NCBI GenBank assembly: GCA_031292625.1
Contig: JARLGU010000053.1
Location: 248,001 to 312,000 of the forward strand
Direction: 5' to 3'
Length of the DNA stretch: 64,000 nucleotides
Source of the DNA: Capsulimonadaceae bacterium
GTDB taxonomy: Bacteria > Armatimonadota > Armatimonadia > Armatimonadales > Capsulimonadaceae
The first letter of the stretch is position 1. Every line of letters begins with the position of its first letter. The translations under genes and the position numbers were made by a program. The notes under the pieces are model-generated. The model searched no databases, was not told the origin of the DNA, and saw only the letters and a program-made list of their open reading frames with translations. Of this stretch, positions 19,961 through 59,088 are shown piece after piece.

Positions 19961-20362
19961 TCAGAATAACGATAATTGCGCTGGCAGTTGTCGTGGAGAA
20001 CCAATAGCCGACCAAGCATATCGATATTAGAATCTACCACAAGAATCGCTAGATAGCAATATTTTCTTTCTCTTCAGGAGCATCTTGCTACAATAGAAAA
20101 TCAACGAATTTTTCAACATCAAGTGAAAACATTCAATTAGCTGTATTTTCGGATATTGAAGTCCAATTTTGCAACAGTCCAAAGCGCCCCGTTCGCCGAG
20201 GAACGCGGCGAACGGCACGAGACAACGGACATTCAAGAACGTCTTGATAGGGCTTATTCGTGCCACTTGAACCACAAAACCGGGATTGCGCGATCAACGT
20301 GTGTTAGAATGGAGAAAGAGAAGAGTCGTGCGCCGGAAGCGCTTATCGGAGGACAGGGACGG
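19961..20362. other. AT-richer intergenic region
   Basis: About 400 bp, clearly more AT-rich than its flanks, between the divergent GGDEF/EAL and Cas3-like genes. It probably carries both promoters; TGTTAGAAT (20302-20310) is an extended -10 candidate for the rightward gene. No supportable gene is present. Confidence 0.45.
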
Positions 20363-21640
20363 ATGGAAGCGACACTTGCCGCGGATCAGCAACAATACGA
20401 GCGGGCCGACACGCTTCTGGAGACGGCCTTCAGGCGAGTCGCCGGCGGCCAAGTTGCAGTTCCGAACACGCTGCAGCGAGCGCTGTTCCCGCGCCTGCTC
20501 AGCCGTGACAGCGGCCTATTAGTGCCGACGGCTCCGGGCGCCGGACGTTTGGAAGCCGTTTTCGTCCCGTCTCTGACGCGATGGCCGCTGAGCGAGATGC
20601 CTCCTCGCCTGTTCATCGTCGCCCCTGACCGCGCGGTGCTCGACGATTACGAATACAGGCTTATTCCTTACGTGCGTTCGCTGGCGGCATCGGATGGCGT
20701 CCCGCGCACCGTCTACATGACGAACGACCCCATGTCTCCGGCATGCCGCAATTATATGCCGGACGGACGCACGGAGCCGCAGGAGTGCGCGCACCCCCTG
20801 GACAGTGAAATTGACCTTTTCGTGCTTCGCATGTCTGAGTTTCGAGCGCTGTTTTTCTCGGATGGAATTGTCAAAGGCCTTCCGGAAGCCACGATGCCGC
20901 AAGAGATGGATGACGCGTCGCCGCGATCCGACATGCTCTATTTCGACGATGCCCCGGAATATTCGCCCGAACAGTTCGGTTCGTTCCTGCGGCTAATCGA
21001 GTTCCTCTTCGCTGAGGACCTCGACATCGTCGTGGGCTCGACAACGTTGCCGCGCGCCGCCATCGAGCAGCTCTCGTTTCTCGAAACGCTCTATGTTCCC
21101 GAGGCGAACGACGAGCCCATCCGGACTATTCAGTCGATCGACCGCAAGAGATGGACTCCGCCGGCAATTGCAGCGGCGATTGAGGACGCGCAATCCGCGG
21201 TGCTCATCGCGGAGACCGATGACGAGGCAAATGGCCTCGCCTCCAGCATCTACGAGGCAACCGGCGCGCCGCCGACGCTCTATCTGGCCTCCATGCCGGC
21301 GGATGATCGATTGAGCGTCTACGGCGGACTTCGCACGGCCGAGCGCGAAGGGCGGCGCTATGTTTGCATCGCGGATCCCGCCGTCGCCGAGGCGGTCGAT
21401 TTGAGCGCGGATCTCGTGGTTACCGGCGTCTGCTCGCCGGAGAGCCTGGTCCGGCGAGCCGGGCGTTGCAACCGGCGGCGCGAGTTCGCATCGGGACGCA
21501 TTCTCGTCATTACCGAAGAAGCGGAGAAATCGGCCAAGCGATTGTCCAAATACGAAAGTGCGTATACTTCAATGATTCGCGACCTATCCGAACCAGTCCC
21601 TTTCTCGGGCGCGGCCTGGATCGCGTTTATCGGTGCGTAA
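20363..21640 (+). CDS. Degenerate Cas3-like superfamily 2 helicase
   Basis: About 425 residues from the ATG at 20363 (GGAGGACAGGGA upstream); the frame is open back to 20156. The order of SF2/Cas3 helicase motifs can be followed: VPTAPGAGRLEAV (motif I, with Arg where the Walker A Lys belongs), PRLFIVAPDRAVLDDYEYRL (Ia), LYFDDAPEY (motif II, DDAP in place of DEAH), IVVGSTTLP (motif III), and SPESLVRRAGRCNRR (motif VI, arginine finger intact). The end of the C-terminal RecA lobe reads ADLVVTGVCSPESLV, as in Cas3. There is no HD nuclease domain, and the protein is short for Cas3 (usually >700). ATP hydrolysis is doubtful. No other cas gene or CRISPR array is nearby. It could be a decayed or repurposed Cas3. 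Confidence 0.6.
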   Translation: MEATLAADQQQYERADTLLETAFRRVAGGQVAVPNTLQRALFPRLLSRDSGLLVPTAPGAGRLEAVFVPSLTRWPLSEMPPRLFIVAPDRAVLDDYEYRLIPYVRSLAASDGVPRTVYMTNDPMSPACRNYMPDGRTEPQECAHPLDSEIDLFVLRMSEFRALFFSDGIVKGLPEATMPQEMDDASPRSDMLYFDDAPEYSPEQFGSFLRLIEFLFAEDLDIVVGSTTLPRAAIEQLSFLETLYVPEANDEPIRTIQSIDRKRWTPPAIAAAIEDAQSAVLIAETDDEANGLASSIYEATGAPPTLYLASMPADDRLSVYGGLRTAEREGRRYVCIADPAVAEAVDLSADLVVTGVCSPESLVRRAGRCNRRREFASGRILVITEEAEKSAKRLSKYESAYTSMIRDLSEPVPFSGAAWIAFIGA

Positions 21641-22140: not shown

Positions 22141-22512
22141 ATGAGTGGCATTCGAAACTCTTTGCAGTGTCATTGTGGTCAGCGGATCATTGCTCGCGAT
22201 GTGATGCAGACGGGCTTCTACCTGCGGCTTTTTGGACCGAGCTACGTGTATGTCAAATACCGCTGCTCTCGCTGCAAGAAACTGGGCGAACAATTCGTCA
22301 AGCAGGAAGAGTGGGATGGCGGAATCCTTCGCAACGCCGCAGAGGAAGTTGCCGCCGACGATAAAGAGCGATTTGATACGCTTGGCCCGATCGACATCAA
22401 CGAAGTGATTGACTTTCATTTCCAGCTTGAGAACCTGGGGGATTTGAAAGGGATTGAGCCGCCCCATCCTCCTGCCAAGAAAGTCAAGCAGCGAAGCTCG
22501 ACCGAACGGTAG
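22141..22512 (+). CDS. Zinc-ribbon-like conserved protein
   Basis: 123 residues with GGAGGTAGAGC before the ATG. The N-terminal half has CHCG and, ~35 residues later, YRCSRCKKLG, a four-cysteine zinc-ribbon arrangement around an aromatic strand (FYLRLFGPSYVYVKYRC). The C-terminal half is acidic then basic (KKVKQRSS). Cytoplasmic, no membrane segment. The family is not recognised; a nucleic-acid or regulatory role is possible from the zinc ribbon only. It is the first gene of a rightward stretch including gatC and hpt, but a 214-bp gap separates it from gatC. Confidence 0.75.
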   Translation: MSGIRNSLQCHCGQRIIARDVMQTGFYLRLFGPSYVYVKYRCSRCKKLGEQFVKQEEWDGGILRNAAEEVAADDKERFDTLGPIDINEVIDFHFQLENLGDLKGIEPPHPPAKKVKQRSSTER

Positions 22513-22726: not shown

Positions 22727-23023
22727 ATGGCCACTCAATTGACCACACAGGACGTCGCGAAGGTAGCCGCTTTGGCGCGCCTGGAGCTGTCCGCCGACGA
22801 ACAAGAACGGATGAAGTACCAGCTCAACGATATCCTGGATCAGTTTCTAAGCCTTCAAGAGCTTGACACCCAGGATGTCGAGCCGACATCGCATTCGCTC
22901 CCAATGCGCAATGTCTTCCGGGAGGATGCAGCCCGTCCGTCGCTTCCGAGAGAAGCGGCAACGCGCAATGCGCCTGAAAAGCGGGACGGAAACTTTATTG
23001 TCCCGCAAATTGTTGATGCCTAG
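22727..23023 (+). CDS. gatC: Aspartyl/glutamyl-tRNA amidotransferase subunit C
   Basis: 98 residues. It matches GatC throughout: TTQDVAKVAALARLELSADE, a long helix DILDQFLSLQELDTQDVEPT, LPMRNVFREDAARPSL, and the C-terminal DGNFIVPQIVD. GatC stabilises GatA in the GatCAB complex that converts misacylated Glu-tRNA(Gln) and Asp-tRNA(Asn) to the amidated forms. gatA and gatB are not adjacent; the next gene is hpt, 23 bp downstream. The start is the ATG at 22727, since the upstream extension does not match the family. Confidence 0.95.
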   Translation: MATQLTTQDVAKVAALARLELSADEQERMKYQLNDILDQFLSLQELDTQDVEPTSHSLPMRNVFREDAARPSLPREAATRNAPEKRDGNFIVPQIVDA

Positions 23024-23869: not shown

Positions 23870-25414
<1,545 letters not shown>

Positions 25415-58431: not shown

Positions 58432-59088
58432 AGCGAAGCGACCAAGAAAAAATGCCCCGGCGGCATGAGCCGTCCTGAATCTTTCTCGCAACGCCGATCA
58501 ATCAATGACTCGCTTTCTCAGCTGCCCTTCAAGACGGCTCCCCGGCCGCCGTGGCCGTTTTTGGGAAAGGGTCGGCACAGCGCTTTCACTGCTTAACGAT
58601 GTGCGGTGGAATCGTACGATGGCGGCAAAACGATGTGCGCGTGTTGACGAGGCATTGTCAATCACCGCCGTGAACGAGGCGCGGGCAAGACCGGTCCGAG
58701 ACCGGCGGACGATGGCGGCAAAGGGCCGTACGCGTGTTGACGAAGCATTGTCAATCACCGCAGTGAACGAGGCGCGGGCAAAAAAATGCCCCGGCGGCAC
58801 GAGCCGTCCTGAATCTTTCTCGCAACGCCGATTGATGGCTCGCTTTCTCAGCTGCCCTTTAAGACGGCTCCCCGGCCGCCGTGGCCGTTTTTGGGAAAGG
58901 GTCGGCACAGCGCTTTCACTGCTTCACGATGTGCGGTGGAATCGGACGATGGCGGCAAAAGGCCGTGCGCGGGTTGACGAAGCATTGTCGATCGACGCCG
59001 TGAACGAGGCGCGAGCAAAAAAATGCCCCGGCGGCATGAGCCGTCCTGAATCTTGTCCGCGACATGCCAGTTAAGAACACACAATCTG
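58432..59088. repeat. Tandem array of repeat family 1 (copies F1-F3)
   Basis: F1 is only the right end (58441-58500). F2 (58531-58836) is complete but has an internal ~93-bp duplication (58616-58797). F3 (58861-59088) is complete. The starts of F2 and F3 (AAGACGGCTCCCCGGCC) are exactly 330 bp apart. The joins (CGCTTTCTCAGCTGCCC) are nearly identical, so the array grew by duplication of a whole unit including flanking DNA. Confidence 0.85.

Follow-up and report, generated by a model that had tools for sequence, protein, structure and literature searches.

Does a Cas3-like helicase gene that has damaged ATPase motifs and stands apart from any cas gene encode a working Cas3, a decaying pseudogene, or a protein kept for another purpose? 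This question is raised by a gene of a Capsulimonadaceae bacterium (genome G000, contig C20) that lies within a stretch of 64,000 nucleotides, which was analysed as a whole and is referred to here as the window. The frame of 425 codons described in the initial annotation is intact, with no internal stop, and a GGAGG ribosome-binding site ahead of the ATG supports this codon as the start (table 1). A sigma-70 consensus scan made no promoter call on the + strand, the candidate −10 element listed in table 1 included; this element can be compared with TGTTATAAT, which is found immediately 5' of the homologues in genomes G003, G001, and G005.

We compared the protein with models of Cas3 and of other helicases. 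Its single Pfam match is PF22590 (Cas3-like_C_2; 33.9 bits, cut-off 27), and it also matches the Cas3 core model TIGR01587 (E = 7e-11, 41.8 bits) and the Cas3g model TIGR02621 (40.1 bits), both under their curated cut-offs of 102.45 and 400, as well as the PADLOC Cas3 model (E = 7e-17). All seven members of the orphan family match TIGR01587, TIGR02621, and other Cas3 profiles, the other six likewise falling under the TIGR01587 cut-off, and a profile built from the seven matches solved Cas3 structures with E = 1.5e-12; these scores place the relatedness to Cas3 well above chance. Pfam DEAD and Helicase_C models give weaker matches in some members only, and on sequence none of the other helicase families gives a better fit. 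An AlphaFold2 model computed from eight sequences has two RecA domains (pLDDT 77, pTM 0.82), so that the predicted fold is an intact SF2 fold, and its top PDB match in Foldseek is the Cas3-DExD structure 8wtk, with RecQ and DEAD-box proteins close behind in score. Because these further matches are generic SF2 folds, structure alone cannot single out Cas3, whereas sequence together with the tree can; profiles, model, and trees agree on an SF2 core of two tandem RecA domains that is related to Cas3'. The claim that the HD nuclease is missing is borne out: Pfam and NCBIfam models detect no HD domain, the stretch ahead of the helicase core is only about 29 residues long, and no HD gene was found by inspection among the neighbouring ORFs.

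As first reported, the window contains neither a CRISPR array nor a Cascade gene; no cas gene of any kind was found in it, and its closely spaced direct repeats amount to low-complexity codons within rho and a single repeat of two copies. Ahead of the core of Rho lies a long tract of RGD/RGDR repeats that is encoded at 23970–24129 by 9-nt repeats, and two 76-nt direct repeats at 58613–58781 are 89% identical and 93 bases apart. The genome itself does carry CRISPR-Cas on other contigs, with two Cas1/Cas3 loci on C34 and C55. The type I locus on C55 (L019, C55:32500–52000) includes a repeat array, seen as repeated FQFLKGAIKA peptides, and Cas6-, Cas8-, Cas7-, Cas5-, and Cas4-like ORFs that were read by eye, the model matches being those to Cas3 and Cas1 only. 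Among the other genomes with the orphan, G002, G004, and G005 have cas loci. In G001 and G003 no Cas1 was detected and no Cas3 exceeded the cut-off; as these two genomes are drafts (96% and 87% complete, respectively), the absence of cas genes from them is not certain. In none of the seven genomes is the orphan linked to cas genes.

The seven orphans come out as a single clade (100/100) in maximum likelihood trees built from the helicase core. This clade groups with the Cas3' proteins of Thermus thermophilus pTT27 (L083), Picosynechococcus PCC 73109 (L084), and the Armatimonadota genome G063, a grouping that singles out no one CRISPR Cas3 as the sister. Both tree and BLAST point to the Thermus and Picosynechococcus proteins as the closest clade, with identities of 23–27% to the window protein and up to about 37% to intact members. 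By PADLOC both of these loci are type I-B on the basis of Cas8b, the Thermus locus also having Cas7b and Cas5b, and an active type I-B system has been reported in T. thermophilus HB27 (PMC10989782). The Cas3-like label of the initial annotation is supported, the protein grouping with type I-B Cas3' proteins. The Cas3 proteins resident in G000 are only distantly related to the orphan, and those of G000, G002, G004, and G005 all fall into other clades, so that the orphan did not arise by duplication of any Cas3 that these genomes carry today. A phage origin is not supported either, as no relative was found in viral contigs or phages.

Intact homologues, free of frameshifts and stops, are present in all seven genomes of the family and in all five of its genera (g1–g5), the genus of the window being sampled by one genome. 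The 12 genomes of the sister family have no homologue at a comparable score, only weak matches to ordinary Cas3 proteins and helicases, and the best relative in the phylum outside the family is that of G063 (234 bits; the next, 58 bits). A scan of genome contigs with a single sequence gave no match, and one with the alignment recovered five family members only; the relatives are MAGs of Armatimonadota, a Capsulimonas among them. The gene order orphan-(uvsE)-Cys protein-gatC is kept in four of the five genera (g1, g3, g4, and g5): the orphan lies upstream of, and in the same orientation as, a gene for a small Cys-rich protein (CHCGQR...CSRCKK) that occurs in 15 of the 19 genomes of the order and has no NCBIfam model, and gatC follows wherever the contig reaches far enough. 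uvsE stands between the orphan and the Cys protein gene in g5 and g3, and in g2 the uvsE-Cys protein-gatC block is kept with the orphan located elsewhere. In G004, and in that genus only, a gene for a 1,234-aa NTPase with tetratricopeptide-like repeats (L014:10288–13989) lies between the orphan and uvsE, as if inserted. Presence throughout the family, a position shared by four genera, and occurrence in genomes without detected Cas1 or intact Cas3 make the inheritance look vertical and independent of CRISPR.

Table 1. Coordinates of the orphan gene, its motifs, and adjacent features in the window
Feature	Position	Strand	Basis or remark
Orphan Cas3'-derived two-RecA SF2 protein	20363..21640	+	425 aa plus stop
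GGAGG ribosome-binding site	20348..20352	+	10 nt before ATG; from sequence
Candidate extended −10, TGTTAGAAT	20302..20310	+	Putative, from sequence; no −35 seen
Motif I (Walker A) GAGRL, residues 59–63	20537..20551	+	Alignment
Motif II DDAP, residues 195–198	20945..20956	+	Alignment
Motif III STT, residues 226–228	21038..21046	+	Alignment; family-wide change
Motif V ADPAVAEAVDLS, residues 337–348	21371..21406	+	Alignment; Gly lost family-wide
Motif VI RRAGRCNRR, residues 364–372	21452..21478	+	Alignment; invariant in family
Small CxC...CxxC protein	22141..22512	+	Conserved syntenic neighbour; not claimed as functional partner
gatC-like gene	22727..23023	+	Named from sequence; syntenic anchor

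Alignment of the family upholds the two substitutions first noted, Arg for Lys in motif I and DDAP for DEAH in motif II, and reveals that the damage goes further. Relative to GxGKT, the window protein has lost not only the Walker A Lys but also the Thr, which is replaced by Leu, and relative to DEAH it has lost both Glu and His. Beyond the initial annotation, the Gly of motif V is gone, motif III is STT in the orphan family (SAT or TAT in the CRISPR relatives), and just ahead of RAGR motif VI has Arg, compared with Gln in the CRISPR relatives. All seven members share the changes in motifs III, V, and VI and differ in the state of motifs I and II: G002, G004, and G006 have GAGKT and DEAH, G001 and G005 have GAGKV and DEAH with the Walker A Thr lost, G003, the nearest relative of the window protein, has GAGRL and DEAQ, and the window protein with GAGRL and DDAP is the most damaged copy. 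Of the substitutions first noted, GAGRL is therefore shared with a relative, in G003, and DDAP is not, since G003 has DEAQ and five members have DEAH. As the changes in motifs III, V, and VI occur in every member, the simplest order is that these came first, and retention of GAGKT plus DEAH in three homologues indicates that the damage to motifs I and II postdates the separation from CRISPR. Hydrolysis in SF2 enzymes does not normally survive a K-to-R change in motif I or the loss of the Glu from motif II, and judging from its motifs the window protein would neither hydrolyse ATP nor power translocation. The proposal that the protein is non-catalytic probably holds for the window protein and G003; it does not extend to the family as a whole, in which three homologues keep both GAGKT and DEAH. 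The arginines of motif VI normally contact ATP, and the fact that they are kept would be compatible with some remaining nucleotide binding. Of the sites that are otherwise invariant, the window protein retains 13 of 17 around this motif, compared with 4 of 8 in each of motifs I and II and 4 of 13 in motif V. Overall it retains 104 of the 198 residues that are invariant in the five slower homologues, suggesting weaker constraint in its lineage, and G003 retains 131.

We analysed selection with a purpose-written codon model of the GY94 type that has no rate variation among sites. A fit with one omega for the family gave 0.042, and fixing omega at 1 for the window branch lowers lnL by 7.8 units (2ΔlnL about 15.7, 1 df); synonymous sites on this branch are saturated, so that no reliable omega value can be assigned to it, and saturation also drove a codon model with four classes to boundary values, so that this model was set aside. 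The neutral fit predicts about 18 stop-creating changes, and none is observed. The gene has been maintained by purifying selection over the window branch as a whole, although relaxation may have set in very recently. Stops, frameshifts, and neutral evolution, the marks of a pseudogene, are all lacking; instead the fold is kept, catalytic residues are lost, and selection is purifying, as in a pseudohelicase. The view of the initial annotation that this is no recent pseudogene thus gains support both from the intact homologues in all seven genomes and from the dN/dS analysis. A slower decay, in which a protein functional in the rest of the family is relaxing toward a future pseudogene in the window lineage, would account for the long window branch (0.93–1.02 vs. 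about 0.40 for G003) and for the fact that the orphan evolves fast in this lineage, with an identity to G003 of 44.6% vs. 78% for the flanking Cys protein and 83% for rho. The contrast is smaller elsewhere, at 69% for the orphan against 79–82% between G004 and g2, and 86% against 91% within g2. We regard such decay as unlikely given the intact frame, the good ribosome-binding site, the intact motif VI, the rejection of omega = 1, and a GC content by codon position (0.66/0.49/0.72) like that of the neighbouring genes.

Alternatively, the orphan could still be an ATP-dependent stand-alone helicase or translocase, with a role such as DNA repair near uvsE, and with the window version coping with Arg62 and Asp196. 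The homologues with GAGKT plus DEAH, the motif VI arginines kept in every member, and the uvsE gene nearby in g3 and g5 are all consistent with an enzyme of this kind; it would nevertheless have to work in the window copy with Lys and Thr of Walker A, Glu and His of DEAH, and Gly of motif V all missing at once, and with motifs III, V, and VI altered in all seven members, which together with the usual effect of such motif I and II changes on SF2 hydrolysis makes this quite improbable. Still harder to credit is a role as helper or regulator of the CRISPR systems resident in these genomes, for instance as a decoy competing with active Cas3 for Cascade. Four of the genomes do carry cas loci, but the orphan also occurs in G001 and G003 without detected Cas1 or intact Cas3, is unlinked to cas genes throughout, and does not lie close to any resident Cas3 in the tree, and we give this idea very little credence.

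We consider it probable that the orphan originated from a Cas3', was inherited vertically, and is retained in an ATPase-damaged state. A type I-B Cas3' of the Thermus/Picosynechococcus kind would have entered the ancestor of the family, or outlived its lost CRISPR locus there, lost the HD nuclease and the C-terminal region, and become fixed in the chromosome near uvsE and gatC; tree, distribution, and synteny suggest that it was then passed on vertically as a stand-alone two-RecA protein of 420–430 aa. Residues of motifs III, V, and VI would have changed family-wide before some genera lost Walker A and DEAH step by step, which left in the window an apparently ATPase-dead pseudohelicase whose duty would not need ATP hydrolysis. 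Retention of the fold and of the basic motif VI (RRAGRCNRR) makes a static scaffold that binds nucleic acid or a partner the most likely form of this duty. Nucleic-acid binding is our tentative first guess for the window protein, and a protein-only scaffold, which we find rather doubtful, is the next. The uvsE neighbour hints at a role in DNA repair, a hint that deserves little weight, since in g2 the orphan lies apart from the block to which uvsE still belongs. That the protein is repurposed, as initially suggested, is likely, if on indirect grounds, in view of its family-wide presence, its conserved position, and its occurrence in two genomes without detected Cas1 or intact Cas3. The fuller proposition, on which we are evenly divided, is that a Cas3' motor was domesticated as a core gene throughout the Capsulimonadaceae for a non-CRISPR role free of ATP hydrolysis, with stages from motor to scaffold surviving in living genera.

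Although it descends from Cas3', the orphan does not pass the tests that define a working Cas3. With the type I-B Cas3' proteins of Thermus and Picosynechococcus it shares the tandem RecA core, the order of motifs, and GRxNRRG in motif VI; it lacks the 245–311 aa that these have before the core and their longer C-terminus, and whereas they sit in cas operons with motifs I, II, III, V, and VI intact, the orphan does not. The Cas3' of G063 (L055:1114–2895), which lies beside cas6, is HD-less like the orphan, and unlike it has 594 aa with an extra C-terminal region and all motifs intact. Its locus (L055; G063 C477:1–9000) contains two helicases, a type I-D Cas3d (TIGR03158, 915 aa) with Csc1 and the HD-less Cas3' of the I-B-like clade adjoining cas6. 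Our literature search, incomplete in coverage, found no paper on such a Cas3 and nothing useful on pseudoenzyme helicases. The orphan tells more as a family than as an individual gene. The graded loss of ATPase motifs across genera, from GAGKT/DEAH through GAGKV/DEAH and GAGRL/DEAQ to GAGRL/DDAP, provides a natural series in which to ask what a helicase fold can do once its motor is gone. Reduced CRISPR-Cas variants have been proposed to be exapted, and the type I examples keep the crRNA effector and lose Cas3 (PMC6452270). As in those variants, CRISPR interference is lost here and one Cas component is retained; exaptation in type I is usually reported for effector complexes minus Cas3 (PMC6452270), and the Capsulimonadaceae seemingly present the opposite case, in which the Cas3 core alone is kept.
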